Positions 4,531 to 59,834 of a DNA stretch of 64,000 bases are shown here, piece after piece. The notes under the pieces are model-generated. The model was not told the DNA's origin. It made no database searches and worked only from the letters and a program-made list of their open reading frames with translations. Source of the DNA: Clavibacter sp. VKM Ac-2873 (GTDB lineage: Bacteria; Actinomycetota; Actinomycetes; Actinomycetales; Microbacteriaceae); assembly GCF_015351075.1 (NCBI RefSeq), contig NZ_JADKRS010000002.1, positions 248,001 to 312,000 on the forward strand, given 5' to 3'. Position numbers and translations under genes: made by a program. The number at the start of each line of letters is the position of its first letter. Position 1 is the first letter of the stretch.

Positions 4531-5907
4531 ATGTCGCACCCCGCCGCCCCGCCGGTCGCGCGCCACGCCGACCCCGCCGCCCCGGATCCCGCCGACCGCC
4601 CCGCGTTCTCCGAGTACGAGTCGGAGCCCGTTCCCCCGCACGCGCGCCGTCGCACCGCGTCGGTCGCGGCCGTCTGGCTCGGCTTCCCGATGATCCTCAC
4701 CTGCGCCGTGTTCGGCGGCCTGGTCGTCCACTCGCTCGGCTTCTGGCCGGGCATGGGCGCCATCGCGGTCGGCACGCTCGTCCTCATGGTCTACGTCGGG
4801 GCGCTCAGCTACCTGGCCGGCCGCAGCGGCGAGAGCTTCGCGCTCATGGCCATGCGCACGTTCGGGGCGAAGGGGTACGTCGTGCCGGCGGGCTTCCTCG
4901 CGACCGTGGTCATCGGCTGGTTCGCGTTCCAGACCGGGCTCACCGGATCCACGCTGCACGGCAGCCTCGGCTGGGACCAGACGGGCACCACGCTCGTGGC
5001 GGGCCTCCTCTTCGTCGCGGTCACGCTGCTCGGCATCCGCGCGCTCTCCTGGATCGGCGTGGTCGCCGCGCCCCTCTACCTCGTGCTCGGGGCGGTCGCC
5101 GTCGTGATCGTGGCCACTCGGCCGGGTGGCGCGGAGCTGCAGACCGCGCCCGCGGCGGGAGCCGGCGCGTTGAGCTTCGGCGCCGCCGTGACGCTGGTCG
5201 TCGCGCTCTTCGCCGACTCCGGCACCATGACCGCCGACTTCACGCGCTGGGCGCGCTCGGGCCGGCAGGCCGTGCTCGCGACGCTCGCGGCGTTCCCGTT
5301 CGGCAACGCGATCGCGCTCGTGGTCGGCGGCCTCGTCGTCGCGCTGGGCGGCGCGACCGACCCGGGGACCGCGGGCGGCGACTTCCTCGGGATCCTCGTC
5401 GCGCAGGGCGGCGCCCTCGTGCCGCTCGCCGTGCTGTTCGTGGTGGTGAACCTCGGATCCGTGTGCGCCCACTGCCTCTACAACGGCGCCGTCGGCTGGA
5501 GCCAGCTCACCGTCATGCGCATGCGCCGCACGACCCTCGTGCTCGGCGCGGTGGGCGTCGTCCTCGCGGCCGCCGGCATCTGGTCGTACTTCGAGACCTG
5601 GCTGAACCTGCTGGGGGTGATCGTGCCGCCCATCGGCGCCGTGCTCATCGTCGACCAGCTGCTGCTCGCGCCGCGACGCGCGGCGGCCGGATCCGTCGTC
5701 GCCCGCAGCGCCTGGCGGGCCCCCGCCTTCGTCGGCTGGGCGGTCGGCGCCGTCGTCGCGCTGGTGGCCCACGCGTACGCCGACTTCCTCTCGACCGCGG
5801 TCGTGGGCATGGTCGTCGGCGCGGTCGTGATCGTCGTCGCGGACGCCGCAGGACGTGCGCGTGCCCCGCTGGCCGCGGCCGTCGACGCGGCGGAGGCCCG
5901 CTCGTGA
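4531..5907 (+). CDS. NCS1-family nucleobase/cytosine-type permease
   Basis: A 458-residue inner-membrane transporter with about 12 hydrophobic segments, in the range of cytosine permease CodB and purine-cytosine NCS1 symporters. The N-terminal tail (about 50 residues, [20 protein letters not shown]) is cytoplasmic. Pieces such as [18 protein letters not shown] and [10 protein letters not shown] fit the NCS1 family. Start ATG 4531 has AGGAG 6-7 bases upstream. The next gene overlaps its stop by 4 bases and encodes a biuret/ureidoacrylate-type amidohydrolase, so the imported substrate is probably a nitrogen-rich compound (pyrimidine, biuret or relative). The exact substrate cannot be read from sequence. 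Confidence 0.85.
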
Positions 5908-52496: not shown

Positions 52497-53171
52497 TCAG
52501 GCCAGGCCCCGGGCTCCCGCCGGCGCGTTCGCCATCCGCACGATGAGCGCGATGAGGTCGTTCGCGCGCGCCACGAGCGCGGCGATCTCGGCCTCGTCGC
52601 GGTCGATCCACTTCCACTTCGGGATGTCGTGCACGGGCACGAAGTCCACGTGCTGCTCCCAGACGATGAGCGAGCGCTCGGCGCCCAGCACGTACTGCTG
52701 CCACCAGATCTGCCGCAGGTAGTTGCGCGGGATGCTGCGCCACGGCTTCGCGGTCGTCTTGATCTCCGCGAGCTCGAGCCGGCCGTCCGCCCGCAGGCCC
52801 ACGCCGTCGGGAGTGGCGAGGTGGCGGCGCTGCCCCTCCGCGTGGAACAGGTGCGCGCTCGGCACGATGCCGTGCTCGGCCTCGACCCAGCGGGCGATCT
52901 CCGGCTCGCGCTCCCGGCCGTGGTCGGTGTAGCGGTTGCCGCCGAAGCCGGATCCGTAGAGCTTCTCGAGCGCGACGGCCTGCAGGGACGCGTCGGTCGC
53001 GAGGCGTGCCACGTCGGTCGCGGTGATGCCGAAGCTGCGGGCGCGGAGCCAGGCGACCCGATCCGACGAGTGGGCGACGATGCGCGTCAGGTGCGGCGGC
53101 GGAGGCGGCGGCGCGGGGGTCGCGGGGGCGAGGTCGTCCTCCCAGGGGAAGGCCAGCATCTCGTCCGTCAC
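52497..53171 (-). CDS. YqaJ-family exonuclease (lambda-exonuclease-like)
   Basis: A 224-residue nuclease. FGITATDVARLATDASLQAV is the YqaJ start. The catalytic PD-(D/E)XK residues lie in HLATPDGVGLRADGRLELAE followed by IKTTAKPW (Asp, Glu and Lys of the ExK). SIPRNYLRQIWWQQYVLGAE completes the pattern. The N-terminus is proline-rich. These enzymes degrade 5' ends of double-stranded DNA and in phages work with a RecT-like annealing partner; none is seen nearby. GTG 53171 is chosen; ATG 53159 is possible. It is divergent from the TOMM cluster. Confidence 0.87.
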   Translation of the reverse strand: MTDEMLAFPWEDDLAPATPAPPPPPPHLTRIVAHSSDRVAWLRARSFGITATDVARLATDASLQAVALEKLYGSGFGGNRYTDHGREREPEIARWVEAEHGIVPSAHLFHAEGQRRHLATPDGVGLRADGRLELAEIKTTAKPWRSIPRNYLRQIWWQQYVLGAERSLIVWEQHVDFVPVHDIPKWKWIDRDEAEIAALVARANDLIALIVRMANAPAGARGLA

Positions 53172-53256
53172 GGGCTCCAGGGTACGCTCCGGATCGGCCA
53201 CGGCCCGCCCCGACGCGGGCGGATCCTCCGGCCTCCGGCGTCCGTTGTCAACAGGT

Positions 53257-53266
53257 GATGCGCATC
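53257..53266. promoter_or_regulatory. Palindrome in the TOMM upstream region
   Basis: GATGCGCATC is a perfect 10-base palindrome in the 171-base gap between the YqaJ gene and the precursor gene. A TTGTCAACA lies just upstream. No convincing -35/-10 pair is visible; TAGAAA at 53291 is the nearest candidate -10. Confidence 0.25.
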
Positions 53267-53342
53267 TGCCCAGGGCGCGGAAGATCGTGCTAGAAAGGCG
53301 TCGTCCCACCCACCCATCACCAGCACGGAGAGAGGAAACGGC

Positions 53343-53567
53343 ATGACCCTGCTCATGGAAGGACCGTCCAGCACGGGAGCATCGGCGCTCGCGGAGGCGC
53401 CCACGCGCGTCGAGGAGGTCGACGCCGCGCGCGCCGACGCCCTGCTCGCCGAGGCGTTCGGCTTCACCATCACGCACCGCGGGCGGGAGGCGGAGGTCGT
53501 GATGGCCGACGTCACCCTCTGCTGCAGCACGTGCTGCTCGTGCAGCAGCAAGCAGCAGCCTCGCTGA
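53343..53567 (+). CDS. TOMM (linear azol(in)e peptide) precursor
   Basis: A 74-residue precursor starting at ATG 53343 behind AGAGGAAACGGC. The leader (residues 1-59) is Ala/Glu rich with the helical EVDAARADALLAEAFGF and THRGREAEVVMADVTL. The core is residues 60-69, ten consecutive Cys/Ser/Thr (CCSTCCSCSS: 5 Cys, 4 Ser, 1 Thr), followed by the tail KQQPR. Cyclodehydration and oxidation would convert these to thiazoles and (methyl)oxazoles. The Cys-rich run recalls cytolysin and heterocycloanthracin-type cores more than plantazolicin. It is the first gene of the cluster, and no cleavage motif such as a GG is evident. Confidence 0.9.
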   Translation: MTLLMEGPSSTGASALAEAPTRVEEVDAARADALLAEAFGFTITHRGREAEVVMADVTLCCSTCCSCSSKQQPR

Positions 53568-53577
53568 CGCCTCCGCC

Positions 53578-54525
53578 ATGGACCCGTCGACGACCTACTC
53601 GGTGAGTCCCCGCTACGCCGTCGGGGAGGTGGAGGACACCCTCCACCTCCTCGGCGGTCGCGAGCTGGTCTCCCTGCAGCTGCCCTCCGGCGACGCCGTC
53701 TCCGCGGTGTCGCGGCTCCTCTCCCGTCCCTTCACGCGCGCGGACGTCGACGGTGCGTTCGGCGTGCACGCGCCGGTCGTGGCCGACCTCGTCGACGAGC
53801 TCGTCGTGCGCGACGTCGTCGTGGGCGTGCCCACGCGGCCCGCCGCCGACGCCGCGCCCGATCCCGTGGGCCGCCTCGACGACCCCGCCCAGGCCGAGCT
53901 CGCGCACGTGCTCGACGAGGCGCGGCGCAACGGCGGCGACCGCACGGGCCTCGGCCGCCCCCGGGATCCGCGCACCCCCGCGCGCGTCGCCCTGGTCGGC
54001 GACGCCATCCCGACCCTGCTCACCTCGCTGGCCGAGGCGCTGCCCTCGGCGGAGCTCACGGACGAGACCGACGCCGACCTGGTCATCGCGGCCGGCAGCC
54101 GGCGGGCCCTCCGGGAGGTGGGCGACCGGATGCACGCGGCCGGTCGCGACTGGCTCCCCATCCACCCGTTCGACGGCCGCTTCCAGCTCGTCGGCCCGGT
54201 CGTCGTGCCGGACGAGGGGCCGTGCCACGAGTGCGTCGCCCTGCGCTGGGCCTCGACCACGCCATTCGCCGCGGACCACGCGGGGGTCGCCGACGCGGTC
54301 GCGCCCGTCCGCCGCGATCCCGGCCTCGACGCCATCGCGGCAGGCTTCGCCGCGCGGTACGCCGCCCGGTGGGTCTTCGCGCGCGACTGGCTCGTGGCGA
54401 GCACAGTGCTCGTGGTCGAGCCGAAGGTGCTGTCGGCGGAGGCGCATCCGGTCTTCCGCGTCGCCCGCTGCGGCACGTGCGGGCCGCGGCCGTACGCGGG
54501 GGTGGTGTCGCCGTGGCGCGCCTGA
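53578..54525 (+). CDS. TOMM leader-binding cyclodehydratase partner (C protein)
   Basis: A 315-residue protein without strong sequence identity to a housekeeping enzyme. The N-terminal 85 residues resemble the winged-helix RRE that grips RiPP leaders. The C-terminal part carries a structural zinc tetrad, Cys216/Cys219 (GPCHECVAL) and Cys298/Cys301 (ARCGTCGPRP), typical of E1-like (ocin-ThiF/cyclodehydratase) proteins of TOMM clusters. It presents the leader to the YcaO enzyme. The gene starts 10 bases after the precursor stop and overlaps the YcaO gene by 13 bases. It is a discrete protein rather than a fused C-D. Confidence 0.82.
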   Translation: MDPSTTYSVSPRYAVGEVEDTLHLLGGRELVSLQLPSGDAVSAVSRLLSRPFTRADVDGAFGVHAPVVADLVDELVVRDVVVGVPTRPAADAAPDPVGRLDDPAQAELAHVLDEARRNGGDRTGLGRPRDPRTPARVALVGDAIPTLLTSLAEALPSAELTDETDADLVIAAGSRRALREVGDRMHAAGRDWLPIHPFDGRFQLVGPVVVPDEGPCHECVALRWASTTPFAADHAGVADAVAPVRRDPGLDAIAAGFAARYAARWVFARDWLVASTVLVVEPKVLSAEAHPVFRVARCGTCGPRPYAGVVSPWRA

Positions 54526-55784
54526 GGACGGCGGGGGCCGACGTGGTGAGCCCGTTCACCGGGCTCGTCGCGTACTCGCATCCCATGGCGTTCACGCCGG
54601 ACGCCATCCCCGACGCGCTGCACTCCGCACGCACGGCCGACACGGGCTTCCTCGCGGGCATCGCCACGGAGGGGTTCAGCATGGGGCCGGGCGGCAGCGC
54701 GGCGGACGCGCGGAGGTCGTGCGTGGGCGAGGCGGTGGAGCGCCTCTCCCTGGCCGGCGGCCGGGGAGCGTTCCGCGCGCCGCTGGGCTCCGACGCCCGC
54801 CAGGTCGAGCCCGATGCGTTCCAGCGCTTCCACCCGGCGCAGCGCGAGGACGCGGCGTTCTCGTTCGAGCGTGCCGAGCGGGGCGACCTCCTCACCTGGC
54901 TCCCGGCGCGGTCGATGCACGGCGGGCGGCAGGTGCACGTCCCCGCGCAGATGGTGGTCTTCGACGACCCGCACGCGGCCGACGGCCACCGTGAGCGGCA
55001 CCTCGAACCGGCCACCTCGTCCGGCGTCGCGGCCGGGCCCACGTTCGGCTTCGCGGCCGGTCGGGCGATCCTCGAGCTCATCGAGCGCGACGCGTTCCAG
55101 CGGGCGTGGCTGCGCGGATCCACGCCGCCCGCGTTCGACTGGCGCGCCAGCCCCCGCCTCACCGAGGCGACCCGGCGCGAGCTCGCGCGGTTGGAGGAGC
55201 TCTGCGGGAGGTTCGGCGCCGCGTTCTCGCTGCGCGTGCTGGACGCCGCGGCGGACGTGCCCGTGCTCCTCGCGGTGATGCGGAGCGACCGCATCGGCGT
55301 CGCGGTGGGCTGCGCGGCCGACTTCCGGCTCGACCGCGCCGCGCTCAACGCCGTGCGCGAGGCGGTCCACACCCACAACTGGTGCCTGCGCCTGCTGCCC
55401 CTGCCGCCCGTCGAGCCGTCCGCGGTCGTCGAGTTCGAGGACCACGTGCGCCTGCACTGCGCGCCGTCGGCCCGCCCGCTGTCCGCCGCCCTGGACGCAT
55501 CGGTCGAGTCCGTGGCGTCCGTGAGCGGGCCGTCGAGCTGGGGAGAGGTCGTGGAGGGGCTGCATCGGGAGGGGATCGAGGTGCTGCTGTCCGAGATCAC
55601 CGCGCCGGAGGTGCGCGCCGCCGGCTTCCACGTCGTCCGCGCGCTGAGCCCTCACCTGGTCGCGCTCGACGTGCGGCACGACGCCCGGTTCCTCGGGCAT
55701 CCGCGGCTCTACCGGCGGTGGCGGGACGGGCCCGCGATCCTGAGCCCGGCCGACCTCGTCGGCGTCCCGCACCCGTTCCCGTGA
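54513..55784 (+). CDS. YcaO-domain cyclodehydratase (D protein)
   Basis: A 423-residue YcaO enzyme. ATP-binding motifs are visible: SCVGEAVER (residues 69-77) and AAGRAILELIERDAFQRAW (Glu188, Glu191 and Arg192). The C-terminus ends in PHPFP, the PxPxP motif needed for catalysis in azoline-forming YcaO proteins. It uses ATP to close Cys/Ser/Thr side chains onto the preceding carbonyl, giving thiazolines and oxazolines. GTG 54513 overlaps the C-protein gene; GTG 54543 is an alternative start. The presence of the PxPxP tail makes it likely active. Confidence 0.92.
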   Translation: MARLRTAGADVVSPFTGLVAYSHPMAFTPDAIPDALHSARTADTGFLAGIATEGFSMGPGGSAADARRSCVGEAVERLSLAGGRGAFRAPLGSDARQVEPDAFQRFHPAQREDAAFSFERAERGDLLTWLPARSMHGGRQVHVPAQMVVFDDPHAADGHRERHLEPATSSGVAAGPTFGFAAGRAILELIERDAFQRAWLRGSTPPAFDWRASPRLTEATRRELARLEELCGRFGAAFSLRVLDAAADVPVLLAVMRSDRIGVAVGCAADFRLDRAALNAVREAVHTHNWCLRLLPLPPVEPSAVVEFEDHVRLHCAPSARPLSAALDASVESVASVSGPSSWGEVVEGLHREGIEVLLSEITAPEVRAAGFHVVRALSPHLVALDVRHDARFLGHPRLYRRWRDGPAILSPADLVGVPHPFP

Positions 55785-55860
55785 GGGCGCCCCGCCGCCC
55801 CGCGTCCATGCCATCGCGAGCCGATGCGCGCCATCGCGCCCGCACCATCAGGAGGACCCC

Positions 55861-56910
55861 ATGAGCATCACCGACATCGGCACAGCGCCCGCGCGCACGG
55901 CGGAGGACGGCCGAGCCGGGACGGGCGCGGAACCCGGTCCGGCACCGGCACCGGCGTCGGCGTCCGCCGGCAGCGTCGGCCCGATCTTCAGCGTCGGCGG
56001 CGCGGTCGAGCGGGCGGCGGGCGACCTCGCCGAGGACTTCCACGAGGCGTCCAAGATCACGCGCATCACCCACCCCGGCTGGACCGACGTGCGGTACGCG
56101 CAGCAGCTGGCGCAGGAGGCGCAGGGCGTCGCGGACGCGGGACCGGGCGGCGCCACGAGCGCGCCGCGCCTGCTCCCGGCGCTCGCCCTGCCGCCGGCGC
56201 TGCCGCTGCCGCACGGCCTCGGGGCGACGATCGCGGCCCGCCGGTCGGCGGATCCGGAGCAGCTCGCCGCGCCGCTCGCGCTCGCGGAGCTCGCGACCGT
56301 GCTGCGCGCCGCCTACGGGCCGCGCGGCGACGGCGGCACCGGCCGCTTCGTGCCCTCGGCCGGCGGGCTCTACCCGCTCGACCTGCACGTCGTGGTGCGG
56401 GCGGCCGAGGGCGTCGCGGCGGGGATCCACCAGCTTGACCCGCTCGAGGAGGCGCTCGTCGACGTGTCCGGCCTCGACCGGGCCGGTCGGCTCGCGCGCT
56501 TCCGGCGTGCCGCGCCGACGGCCATGGCGCCCCTCGCCGAGCAGGCGGCCGTGACGATCGTGATCACCGGCAGCTTCGAGCGCTCCCGCACGAAGTACGG
56601 CCTGCGCGGCTACCGGCTCACGCTGCTCGAGGCGGGGCACGTCGCGCAGAACGCGCTGCTCGTCGCGACGGCGCTCGGGCTCCCGTCGATCGGCTGGGTC
56701 GGCTTCGTCGACCACGAGCTCGACGCCGTGCTCGGGCTCGACGGGGTGACGCAGTCGTCGCTCTACGCGGTCTCGCTGGGCGGGCGTCCGGATCCGGGCG
56801 GCACCGCGCCCCCGGACGGGCTGGCTCCCGCCGCGGTGCATCGCGACCACCCGCACTCGGCGGCCGCCGGCGCGCGGCACTTCGCCGAGGAGGAGGCCTC
56901 GCATGACTGA
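55861..56910 (+). CDS. SagB-type azoline dehydrogenase (B protein)
   Basis: A 349-residue FMN-dependent nitroreductase-fold enzyme. PSAGGLYPLDLHVVVRAA is the FMN-contact signature of the SagB/ThcOx family. The active-site Lys245-Tyr246 lies in SRTKYGLRGYR, matching the Lys-Tyr pair of McbC/BcerB. LLEAGHVAQNALLVATALGL completes the FMN site. It oxidises azolines to aromatic azoles. The N-terminal 50 residues are Ala/Pro rich. It starts at ATG 55861 with AGGAG upstream and overlaps the ABC gene by 8 bases. Confidence 0.93.
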   Translation: MSITDIGTAPARTAEDGRAGTGAEPGPAPAPASASAGSVGPIFSVGGAVERAAGDLAEDFHEASKITRITHPGWTDVRYAQQLAQEAQGVADAGPGGATSAPRLLPALALPPALPLPHGLGATIAARRSADPEQLAAPLALAELATVLRAAYGPRGDGGTGRFVPSAGGLYPLDLHVVVRAAEGVAAGIHQLDPLEEALVDVSGLDRAGRLARFRRAAPTAMAPLAEQAAVTIVITGSFERSRTKYGLRGYRLTLLEAGHVAQNALLVATALGLPSIGWVGFVDHELDAVLGLDGVTQSSLYAVSLGGRPDPGGTAPPDGLAPAAVHRDHPHSAAAGARHFAEEEASHD

Positions 56911-57859
56911 CGCGGTGGAGCTCGAGGGGATCACCCGCACCTTCGGCCGGACGCGCGCGCTCGATGCCGCGTGCTTCTCCCTCGCGCCGGGACTCGTGCA
57001 CGCGCTGCTCGGGCCGAACGGATCCGGCAAGACCACGGCCATCGACGTGCTCACCGCGACGCGCCGCCCCGACGCGGGCCGGGCGCGCGTGCTCGGCCAC
57101 GACGTGCGGCGCGGCGGGCCCACGGCCTCGCTCGTCGCGGTGATGCCGCAGGCGCTCGCGTTCCCCGAGTACCTCACGGTGCGCGAGGTGCTCGCGCTCG
57201 CCCTCGTGCCGCACGCCGCCGCGCTCACGCCGGCCGCGGCCATCGACCGGTTCGACCTCGACCGGCTCGCGTCGCGCCAGACCGGCGGGCTCAGCGGCGG
57301 CGAGCGGCGGAGGGTGGCGCTGGCGTGCGTGGTCGGCGCGGGGACGCCCGTCGTGGTGCTCGACGAGCCCTCGGCGGCGCTCGACATCCCCGGCCGGGCC
57401 GCCGTGCGCGACGCCATCGCCGCGGTCCGCGACTCCGGGCGCACGGTGCTCCTCGCGTCGCACGACATGGAGGAGGTCGCGGCGCTCGCCGACACCGTGG
57501 TCTGCCTCGACCACGGGCGGGTCGTCGGCCACTGGACCGCGGCCGACTTCCGCGGGCTGGCCGGTGTGCGGCGGGTGGGCTTCGACGCGACCGTCGCCGA
57601 GGCGCGGCGCCTCCGGTCGTCCGGTGCGGTGCCCGAGGCGGGGGAGGAGCCCCGCGGCCTCGAGCGGATCCGGTGGGTCATCGACACGGATCGCTCGGAC
57701 GTCGTCGCGGGGCTCGTGCTCGCCGCCGTGTCGCAGCCCCGCCTCACGGTCGTCGAGCCCGGTCTCGGCGAGATCGTGGAGCGCGTGCTGGCGGGTGGCG
57801 CGGAGGCCGTCCCGCCCGATCCGTCCCGCGCCGCGGATCCGGCGGGATGCATCCGATGA
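56903..57859 (+). CDS. ABC transporter ATP-binding protein of the TOMM cluster
   Basis: A 318-residue ATPase. Walker A is GPNGSGKTT (residues 37-45), the signature LSGGERRRVALA (from residue 130) and Walker B VVVLDEPSAALD. The C-terminal extension (about 90 residues) follows HDHGRVVGHWT-type sequence, as in drug-export ABC-2 systems. It powers export of the modified peptide and may give self-protection. ATG 56903 overlaps the SagB gene by 8 bases and its stop overlaps the permease gene (ATGA). Confidence 0.93.
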   Translation: MTDAVELEGITRTFGRTRALDAACFSLAPGLVHALLGPNGSGKTTAIDVLTATRRPDAGRARVLGHDVRRGGPTASLVAVMPQALAFPEYLTVREVLALALVPHAAALTPAAAIDRFDLDRLASRQTGGLSGGERRRVALACVVGAGTPVVVLDEPSAALDIPGRAAVRDAIAAVRDSGRTVLLASHDMEEVAALADTVVCLDHGRVVGHWTAADFRGLAGVRRVGFDATVAEARRLRSSGAVPEAGEEPRGLERIRWVIDTDRSDVVAGLVLAAVSQPRLTVVEPGLGEIVERVLAGGAEAVPPDPSRAADPAGCIR

Positions 57860-58638
57860 CCGCCGCCTCGACGCCCGCCCGTCCCACCGCCGCGCGCCGG
57901 CTGGCGATCTACCGCGCCCACGTCGTGAGCGAGCTCGCGCAGAACGCGCGCATGCCCGCGTTCGTGCTCCCGCTGCTCGCCTACCCCGTGCTCATCTACG
58001 CGGTCGTCGGCCTGCCGATGGGCGGGTCGCCGAGCGCGCGTCTCAGCGTGCTGCTCGGCTACGTGCTGTTCTCGGTGCTCGGGACGGTGACGTTCCAGTT
58101 CGGCGTGGGCGTCGCGTCGGCCCGGGAGTCGCCGTGGGAGCGGTGGCTGTTCACGGCGCCGGTGCCCGCGTGGATCCGGCTCGCCGCCAAGCTCACGGTC
58201 GCGTGCGTCTTCGGGGTGCTGTTCGTGATCCCCGTGGCGGTCGTCGGGTTCACGGCCGGCGGGGTGCGGGTCGACGCGGCGACCTTCGCGGCCGTCGCGC
58301 TCGCCGTGCTGGCCGGGGCCGTCCCCATGGCGCTGCTCGGGCTGGCGATGGGGTACTGGTTCCCCGCCCGCGGCGCGCTCGGCCTCGCCAACCTCGTGTA
58401 CCTGCCCCTGTCGTTCGCGGGCGGACTGTTCACGGGCGGCGACACGAGCGGCACGCCCTGGGAGTCCCTCACGGTCCTGCTCCCCACCGGCGCGTGGAGC
58501 ACGCTGACGAGCGCCGCCGCCCGACACGACACCGCGATGATGGGGATCCCGCTGATCCTCCTCGCGGCCTGGGCGGTGCTGCTCGGCGGCATCACGCTCG
58601 CCGGGTACCAGCGCACGCAGTCGGCGAACTTTCGCTGA
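57856..58638 (+). CDS. ABC-2 permease of the TOMM cluster
   Basis: A 260-residue membrane protein with about six helices, such as FVLPLLAYPVLIYAVVGLPM, LGYVLFSVLGTVTFQFGVG and LTVACVFGVLFVIPVAVVG. WERWLFTAPVPAWIR is the amphipathic interface common in ABC-2 permeases. The start at ATG 57856 overlaps the ATPase stop, so it is translationally coupled. It completes the exporter. The only further neighbours are a sugar isomerase and a TolB-like gene, which are probably unrelated to the peptide. Confidence 0.9.
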   Translation: MTAASTPARPTAARRLAIYRAHVVSELAQNARMPAFVLPLLAYPVLIYAVVGLPMGGSPSARLSVLLGYVLFSVLGTVTFQFGVGVASARESPWERWLFTAPVPAWIRLAAKLTVACVFGVLFVIPVAVVGFTAGGVRVDAATFAAVALAVLAGAVPMALLGLAMGYWFPARGALGLANLVYLPLSFAGGLFTGGDTSGTPWESLTVLLPTGAWSTLTSAAARHDTAMMGIPLILLAAWAVLLGGITLAGYQRTQSANFR

Positions 58639-58670
58639 CGGCGGCCCGTGAGCGGGCGCGGCCCGGTGTG

Positions 58671-58676
58671 TAGCGT
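58671..58676 (+). promoter_or_regulatory. Possible -10 of the sugar isomerase gene
   Basis: TAGCGT lies 33 bases after the ABC-2 permease stop. It gives a leader of about 70 bases ending in a GAGAGGGAACC ribosome site before ATG 58752. Confidence 0.35.
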
Positions 58677-58751
58677 GGATCCCGCGCGCCGTCACCGGGC
58701 CGCGTCACCGCACGCACCGCACCGCACCGTCACCGTCGACGAGAGGGAACC

Positions 58752-59834
58752 ATGCCCCAGATCACCACGCCCGTAGCGCTCTTCACCGGCCAGTGGGCCG
58801 ACCTGCCGCTGGAGGAGGTCGCGCGGCTCGCGAGCGGCTGGGGCTTCGACGCCCTCGAGATCGCGTGCTCCGCCGAGCACCTCGACGTGTGGCGCGCGGC
58901 CGAGGATCCGGCCTACCTCGACGGCCGCCGCGAGATCCTCGAGCGCCACGGCCTCGAGGTGCACGCGCTCTCGCAGCACCTCACCGGCCAGGCCGTGTGC
59001 GACGACCCGATCGACTTCCGGCACCAGGCGATCCTCCGCTCCAAGGTGTGGGGCGACGGGCGGGCCGAAGGCGTGCGACAGCGCGCGGCGGAGGAGCTGA
59101 AGCTCACCGCGAAGGCGGCCGCGGGGCTCGGGGTCACGCGCGTGACGGGCTTCACCGGATCCCGCATCTGGCCGTACGTGGCGATGTTCCCGCCCGTGCC
59201 GCAGTCGGTCATCGACGCCGGCTACCAGGACTTCGCCGACCGCTGGAACCCGATCATCGACGTGTTCGACGACGAGGGCGTGCGGTACGCGCTCGAGGTG
59301 CACCCGAGCGAGATCGCCTACGACCACTGGACCACCCGCCGCACGCTCGAGGCGATCGGCCACCGTCCCGGCTTCGGCCTCAACTGGGACCCGAGCCACA
59401 TGATGTGGCAGGGCATCGACCCCGTCGGCTTCCTCCTCGACTTCGCCGACCGGATCTACCACGTGCACGCCAAGGACACGCGGGTCACCTCCGACGGCCG
59501 CGGCGGGCGGCTCGGCTCCCACCTCCCCTGGGGGCACCCGCGCCGCGGCTGGGACTTCGTCTCCGTCGGGCACGGCGACGTCCCGTTCGAGCGCGCCTTC
59601 CGGGCGCTCCGCAGCATCGGGTACGACGGTCCCGTCTCCGTCGAGTGGGAGGATGCGGGGATGGACCGCCTGCACGGAGCACCCGACGCCCTCGCGCAGG
59701 TGCGCTCCCTCCTCTGGCCGACGCCCGACAGCCTCTTCGACTCGGCGTTCGCGGCCAACCGCGACGACGCTCCGGCCGCTTCCGCTTCCGCTTCCGCTTC
59801 CGCGACCGACGACCCCGCCGGATCGGCCGCGTGA
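58752..59834 (+). CDS. Sugar phosphate isomerase/epimerase-type TIM barrel
   Basis: A 360-residue xylose-isomerase-like barrel. Metal-binding residues are in YALEVHPSEIAYDHW (Glu), LNWDPSHMMWQGIDP (Asp and His), YHVHAKDTRV (His) and VSVEWEDAGMD (Glu). The pattern is that of the AP_endonuc_2/IolE-IolI family and of many sugar catabolic enzymes in actinobacteria. The C-terminal tail is a disordered (AlaSer)n run encoded by a hexamer repeat. The gene overlaps the following TolB-like gene by 4 bases. Substrate unknown. Confidence 0.85.
   Translation: MPQITTPVALFTGQWADLPLEEVARLASGWGFDALEIACSAEHLDVWRAAEDPAYLDGRREILERHGLEVHALSQHLTGQAVCDDPIDFRHQAILRSKVWGDGRAEGVRQRAAEELKLTAKAAAGLGVTRVTGFTGSRIWPYVAMFPPVPQSVIDAGYQDFADRWNPIIDVFDDEGVRYALEVHPSEIAYDHWTTRRTLEAIGHRPGFGLNWDPSHMMWQGIDPVGFLLDFADRIYHVHAKDTRVTSDGRGGRLGSHLPWGHPRRGWDFVSVGHGDVPFERAFRALRSIGYDGPVSVEWEDAGMDRLHGAPDALAQVRSLLWPTPDSLFDSAFAANRDDAPAASASASASATDDPAGSAA
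59777..59803 (+). repeat. Hexamer tandem repeat in coding sequence
   Basis: CGCTTC is repeated 4.5 times, encoding the AlaSer run at the C-terminus of the isomerase. A six-base unit keeps the reading frame, so copy-number change would alter only the tail length. Confidence 0.85.

Follow-up and report, generated by a model that had tools for sequence, protein, structure and literature searches.

Linear azol(in)e peptides (LAPs) of known activity are often antibacterial, and an antibacterial role is the default expectation for them. Clusters for ribosomally synthesized and post-translationally modified peptides (RiPPs) are usually thought to be gained or lost whole, or to vary in the precursor alone. 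The closest described systems to the locus reported here are LAP, or thiazole/oxazole-modified microcin (TOMM), clusters with discrete C and D proteins. They combine a precursor made of a leader and a Cys/Ser/Thr core with a TIGR03882 C protein, a YcaO D protein, a SagB-type B protein, and an ATP-binding cassette (ABC) exporter. The available portion of a 2015 TOMM survey names Clavibacter once, for plantazolicin (PMC4603692). The plantazolicin core begins with Arg and then Cys, and its cluster has a SAM (S-adenosylmethionine) methyltransferase (PMC4603692). Clavibacter clusters with two YcaO proteins appear in the accessible part of the streptamidine paper (PMC8442711), and michiganin and michivionin are described in the accessible part of a 2024 Clavibacter genomics paper (PMC11521342). 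The cluster described here lies at 53343–58638 (+) of a 64,000-nucleotide stretch of the Clavibacter sp. VKM Ac-2873 genome (contig NZ_JADKRS010000002.1, positions 248,001 to 312,000), hereafter the window, and has all of the components listed above. It differs from the described clusters in being genus-wide, in having two forms of the A-C-D-B genes, and in having an exporter that is neutral with respect to these two types. We consider it likely that its biosynthetic half is an exchangeable specificity cassette. We found no report of this cluster, or of a comparable two-type block in a RiPP locus, among the openly licensed papers that our searches listed, and its core matches none of the groups named in the available portion of the 2015 survey (PMC4603692).

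The cluster consists of six same-strand open reading frames, A, C, D, B, T1, and T2, which are adjacent or overlapping and all open. The precursor gene A (53343–53567 (+), 74 residues) was recognized from the gene call and by comparison with related loci. C (53578–54525 (+), 315 residues) is the TOMM leader-binding/cyclodehydratase partner; it matches TIGR03882 with 55.4 bits against a cut-off of 36.9, and its cysteines 216/219 and 298/301 form a tetrad that is invariant in the 8/8 rows aligned. D (54513–55784 (+), 423 residues, GTG start) is the YcaO cyclodehydratase and matches PF02624 with 150.1 bits (cut-off 25.7). Its ExxER-type motifs align with those of TruD and LynD in a nine-row alignment, and its C-terminal PHPFP is identical in 21/21 rows of a separate D alignment. 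B (55861–56910 (+), 349 residues) is a SagB-type flavin mononucleotide dehydrogenase that scores 109.1 bits against TIGR03605 (cut-off 78.4), and its Lys-Tyr pair, which we take to be catalytic, aligns with a Lys-Tyr in McbC. T1 (56903–57859 (+), 318 residues) is the ABC exporter ATPase, with a PF00005 match and a best NCBIfam match, TIGR01188 (drrA), that falls below its cut-off. T2 (57856–58638 (+), 260 residues) is the ABC-2 permease and matches PF01061 above the cut-off. An earlier note, made from the letters of the window, had placed a complete LAP/TOMM cluster of six same-strand genes here, with a zinc-tetrad partner, a YcaO enzyme with intact ATP motifs and a PxPxP tail, and a SagB-type dehydrogenase with a Lys-Tyr pair. 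The gene coordinates, the family matches, and the motif alignments bear out each of these points. Judged by its sequence, the locus is a complete LAP/TOMM cluster, and the peptide made from it is probably turned into an azole compound. From these genes it is sound to infer that an azole peptide would be produced and exported, as the earlier note expected.

Precursor A has a conserved leader part, LLAEAFGFTITHRG...DVTL, followed in type 1 by the core CCSTCCSCSSKQQPR, so that its C-terminal end reads DVTL-CCSTCCSCSS-KQQPR. A had no match at E 0.01 among the Pfam and NCBIfam models. This GC-rich window has 854 open frames of 20 or more residues, which contain 8 runs of at least nine Cys/Ser/Thr residues, and the run by itself is weak evidence for a precursor. 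The precursor gene is found at the same place, with the conserved leader part, in 20/20 related loci, and the predicted peptides share a Met-(Thr/Ser)-start region and a DxxL-like junction ahead of the core in all 20. Across these loci the ten-residue run has six unchanging positions and three at which Cys, Ser, and Thr replace one another; the remaining position holds Ser or Gly. The precursor stands above chance because all 20 related loci have it in place and three of the four variable run positions stay Cys/Ser/Thr. An adjacent precursor with a conserved leader and a Cys/Ser/Thr-rich core is present in the window and in 20/20 related loci. A search of the window's own genome (G000) for a second precursor copy returned the copy in the window and nothing else but three matches at E 0.27–0.78.

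The cluster is present throughout the genus sampled. The YcaO gene D was found in 18/18 Clavibacter genomes, where the earlier note had proposed looking for the cluster, and in 3/3 genomes of a second genus. In a sample of the family, 7/199 genomes have the YcaO, namely four of Clavibacter and three of the second genus. All six genes were located by tblastn in 20/20 related loci. The earlier note had named a disrupted YcaO or precursor in close relatives as evidence against its claim, and both genes are open in 20/20. The genus-wide presence of the cluster and the dimorphism of A-C-D-B across the genus are points that the earlier note did not contain. Five flanking genes are the same in the 5/5 Clavibacter loci checked, and three of the five also lie near the cluster in the second genus (2/2 loci). 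The flanking genes common to both genera show that the chromosomal place is old. Plasmid carriage was considered and set aside; the YcaO matches on PLSDB plasmids all have less than 60% identity (14/14 records).

The Clavibacter precursors fall into two types. Type 1 carries CCSTCCSCSS and occurs in 7/18 genomes (the window and L032–L037); type 2 carries CCSTTCSSSG and occurs in the other 11/18 (L038–L048). The heterocyclisable run has 10 residues in type 1, where it is preceded by Leu, and 9 in type 2. The difference between types extends well beyond the precursor. Averaged in 400-base windows, the DNA of the two types differs by 0.14–0.22 over 53243–56942, roughly twice the within-type value of 0.06–0.15. 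The between-type difference upstream (0.075–0.200) and in the exporter (0.08–0.16) is like the within-type values. Fixed differences were counted in columns without a gap in any row. Inside 53300–56910, 160 of 3370 comparable columns carry bases fixed between the types, compared to 0 of 3463 comparable columns in the flanks and exporter. In 500 shuffles of the type labels, there was at most 1 fixed base inside the block and 0 outside. The first fixed base, 53331, precedes the start codon of A by 12 bases, and the last, 56776, falls close to where the conserved part of B ends; the two-type cassette thus runs at 53331–56776 (+) from the ribosome-binding region of A to near the C terminus of B. 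Fixed amino-acid differences number 15 in A, 15 in C, 37 in D, and 32 in B, and there are 0 in T1 and 0 in T2. Two forms of the peptide and its processing genes thus coexist at this one locus. None of the 15 fixed differences of C falls in residues 1–62, so the leader-binding part expected of C is the same in both types, whereas the catalytic partners differ.

The type split was compared with trees of the block, the exporter, the flanks, and the core genome. In the block tree a single change separates the types, with support 100/100. The exporter tree (18 rows) requires four type changes and a single clade is rejected in the approximately unbiased (AU) test (p-AU 1.5e-7). The upstream-flank tree (17 rows; G208 was excluded for bad alignment and retained in the marker comparison) also requires four changes and rejects one clade (p-AU 0.0009), as does the downstream-flank tree (18 rows, four changes, p-AU 0.0046). 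The downstream stretch of G201 stops at a contig end, and the comparison is confined to the region before about 61850, beyond which the 18 genomes align poorly. The core genome comprised 27,623 columns from two unlinked regions, dnaA-gyrA and rpoBC; stretches in which any row had less than 70% identity to the window's genome were excluded. Type 1 is scattered over the core-genome tree with five changes (4–5 in bootstraps), at least three of which are forced by well-supported branches. A single change occurs in 0/200 bootstrap trees, and the type split is rejected with p-AU 4e-52. Biallelic sites were also counted in gap-free columns. The type split in the block is backed by 125 of them, compared to 10 behind the best exporter split and 2 upstream; among splits that leave four or more genomes on either side, none is backed by more than 6 in the 46 and 25 core-genome windows of 3.37 kb. 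Because the fixed bases are confined to the block and the trees conflict, the peptide and its maturases behave as one exchangeable cassette beside a type-neutral exporter. With the second genus as root, the D tree places both types within the Clavibacter branch (support 100); type 2 is one lineage (100), and type 1 is not resolved as one lineage.

The genes of the cluster are under purifying selection within Clavibacter. The pooled ratio of nonsynonymous to synonymous polymorphism (pN/pS) is 0.21–0.34 for C, D, B, T1, and T2 and 0.65 for A; the downstream piece of G208 was kept in these and in the fixed-difference counts. Silent divergence in C, D, and B is 0.35–0.38 between types versus 0.17–0.24 within types. 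In T1 and T2 it is 0.27–0.28 between the same genomes of different type, and the within-type values of C, D, and B are mostly below the 0.22–0.30 of the exporter. A coarse McDonald-Kreitman-like codon count gave an excess of fixed replacements in D (p 2e-5) and B (p 4e-6) that was not significant for C (p 0.085) or A (p 0.2), with a pooled count for C, D, and B of 84:30 versus 303:433. The method under-counts fixed silent sites, and the frameshifted T2 of G208 was left out of the T2 counts. The excess is suggestive only, since silent saturation inflates it.

A mechanism that fits these data begins with C, which would bind the leader of A and present the core to D. The N-terminal part of C is probably a RiPP recognition element (RRE). 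An RRE is expected to show three strands and then three helices, and the predicted N-terminal order of C is strand-strand-strand-helix-helix-helix; the mean predicted local distance difference test score of the C model is only 41, so the model is too poor to use. A profile search with C gave weak links to LynD (E 0.004) and TruD (E 0.009). RREs fused to TIGR03882 members are described for other LAP pathways in the available part of one report (PMC7470986). D, as an ATP-dependent YcaO enzyme, would convert Cys, Ser, and Thr residues of the 10-residue (type 1) or 9-residue (type 2) run to azolines, and B would oxidize some or all of these to azoles. The leader would be removed by a protease encoded outside the cluster, and T1 and T2 would export the product, with one exporter serving both products. 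The two forms of A-C-D-B, with different cores and co-diverged enzymes, would occupy the same locus in different species, where homologous recombination in the flanks that they share would have swapped them or maintained an old polymorphism. The exporter would follow its surroundings rather than the type, and selection would favor A, C, D, and B staying matched.

The reading of a genus-wide LAP/TOMM cluster with an exchangeable biosynthetic half builds on direct observations of gene content, intact motifs, conservation, sharp block borders, and tree conflict. Several points weigh against it. The product, its azole rings, and its activity are predicted from the genes. A leader protease and an immunity gene were not recognized among the six genes with the Pfam and NCBIfam models. 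D scores 174.5 bits against TIGR03604, the SagD family, below the cut-off of 219.25, although the match spans profile positions 2–377 of 377. The pN/pS of the A core is high, 0.91 after DVTL, mostly from between-type differences. T2 reads in two frames in one of the 18 Clavibacter genomes (G208, locus L046). It is the only interrupted gene among the related Clavibacter clusters, and either a genuine mutation or a fault of the assembly could explain the interruption. The downstream flank is the weakest witness, because its well-supported branches alone force no more than one change. The core-genome columns used as a control were filtered for alignability and evolve slower than the cluster, which makes the exporter the fairer comparison for the block. 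One genome per species was sampled, and exchange within species is not seen directly.

The role and origin of the two types can be explained in several ways. Bacteriocins are usually patchily spread among genomes, and the 18/18 presence of this cluster is unlike that pattern. Even so, it is a real possibility, to which we give somewhat less than even weight, that the product is a narrow-spectrum bacteriocin against related actinobacteria and that the two types arose from diversifying selection on attack and resistance. The excess of fixed replacements in D and B fits such selection, as does the way in which peptide and enzymes are swapped together as complete blocks at one locus; for A and C the excess is not significant. 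LAPs provide antibacterial precedent, for example plantazolicin in the available portion of the survey (PMC4603692). No immunity gene was recognized in the block, and the exporter, the only candidate for self-protection, has 0 fixed differences and would protect each type against the other. Simple warfare between the types fits poorly with a block that has no recognized immunity gene, an exporter neutral to type, and a cluster found in all 18 genomes. A pherotype-like recognition or signaling peptide with two allelic forms, sensed by a receptor elsewhere or by the plant, would account for the genus-wide presence, the type-neutral exporter, and a sharp block of peptide and maturation genes that has two old versions in different species and lies in conserved surroundings. 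At agr-like loci the receptor varies together with the signal, but neither a receptor nor a regulator was recognized in the block or beside it, and we know of no LAP that acts as a pherotype signal; we regard this explanation as unlikely. A fuller version, in which the azole peptide is a genus-core recognition signal whose two forms, with matched maturases, are kept by selection, exchanged as one cassette, and served by a common exporter, strikes us as doubtful. If true, it would be a pherotype-like system built on post-translational chemistry and not on a co-encoded receptor-peptide pair.

Type 2 could instead be a foreign block from an unsampled relative that is replacing type 1 at the fixed locus without balancing selection, a possibility that we hold tentatively. 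It agrees with type 2 being one supported D lineage while type 1 is not, and with a within-type silent divergence that is lower than the between-type value and mostly lower than that of the exporter. Both types nevertheless fall within the Clavibacter branch of the D tree, and no outside donor was found in the sampled genomes, in which few candidates were scored each. The idea that the types are no more than the trace of an old split within the genus, with the flanks and exporter homogenized by recombination, is scarcely credible. Small subclades inside the types do match core-genome pairs, such as G000 with G209, G211 with G212, and G201 with G203. The split is contradicted by the two unlinked core-genome regions together, as noted above (p-AU 4e-52, 0/200 bootstrap trees), and the exporter and both flanks reject it as well. 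A streptolysin S-like cytolysin acting on host cells is very improbable. The discrete C, D, and B proteins, the ABC exporter, and the long contiguous Cys/Ser/Thr run resemble the cytolysin group as far as the available portion of the survey describes it (PMC4603692). The Clavibacter cluster differs in lacking a CaaX-type protease gene beside it, in having Leu rather than Gly before the run, and in a D protein below the SagD-family cut-off.

Membership in the named groups was examined and rejected in two cases. For the cytolysin group, no CaaX-like protease is encoded among the six genes, and the core lacks a Gly followed by at least 10 heterocyclisable residues. PF02517, the CaaX-type protease family, has three matches in the genome, on contigs C1 and C9, and the window is on contig C7. 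The plantazolicin clusters are likewise LAP clusters from actinobacteria and occur in the same genus (PMC4603692, in the portion available). Here A has no Arg-Cys core start and the six proteins have no methyltransferase match, in agreement with the earlier claim that the core is of a different type.

Peptide-type polymorphism appears to be the nearest evolutionary analogy to the Clavibacter block. The agr groups are such a polymorphism at a fixed locus. The comC pherotypes of the pneumococcal competence-stimulating peptide likewise give a peptide system two alternative versions at a single locus with conserved surroundings, as described in the accessible part of the source (PMC5629823). The genes that co-vary in the Clavibacter block are post-translational maturases, in contrast to the agr and com pherotype loci, and no co-varying receptor was found among the block genes with the Pfam and NCBIfam models. 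The precursor and three maturases vary jointly as a block with sharp borders at one fixed chromosomal position, and the exporter takes no part in this variation. If the cassette reading is true, natural exchange respects the matching of core and enzymes, and the locus is a natural experiment on YcaO/SagB substrate specificity, with about 70 fixed residues in D and B set against a core that differs at few places. The data point to an unstudied genus-wide metabolite in a genus that includes important crop pathogens.

More distant relatives are few. The phylum sample contained 1/396 genomes with a match at E 1e-20, the window's own. The order sample contained 6/396 at E 1e-30, namely the window's own genome and five distant relatives. 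Misses are possible in both samples because 4 candidates per genome were scored. A locus from another family of the order (G819, L063:5683–10183) keeps the gene order C-D-B-T1-T2. An upstream open reading frame near 5480–5680, picked by eye, encodes a candidate precursor of about 62 residues ending in ...VTLCSSTSIQTRPTKD, with VTLCSST (shared VTLC.ST). The C match is only about 60 bits, the D match is 183, and the core departs beyond the shared TLC.ST. This relative suggests a wider actinobacterial LAP family. Two genomes, G660 and G700, have the C and D matches in one frame. In G786 and G747 the profiles matched C, D, and B but neither T1 nor T2. An open reading frame after the dehydrogenase in these two loci (L062, L064) resembles, by eye, a CaaX-type membrane protease in the place of the exporter.

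An extended −10-like element, TGCTAGAAAG, lies upstream of A at 53288–53297 (+) and is conserved in the alignment. Its hexamer is TAGAAA in 18/18 Clavibacter rows and TATAAA in 3/3 rows of the second genus, where a fuller TTGACT...TATAAA pair is visible upstream of A. The element is promoter-like, and a promoter role for it is inferred. A standard sigma-70 consensus scan of 53100–58800 found no promoter; a terminator scan of the same region likewise gave nothing. The window's own genome encodes a second, different YcaO-domain protein of 555 residues (L031:4389–6056, on the 84 kb contig C12), with a weak TIGR03604 match of 71.6 bits, below the cut-off. It is adjoined by open reading frames that resemble, by eye, an ABC transporter pair and a major facilitator superfamily protein. 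The divergent upstream neighbor of the cluster (52497–53171 (−)) is lambda-exonuclease-like, with a TIGR03033 match of 30 bits that is below the cut-off; the gene keeps its place next to the cluster in Clavibacter and is also found close to it in the second genus.

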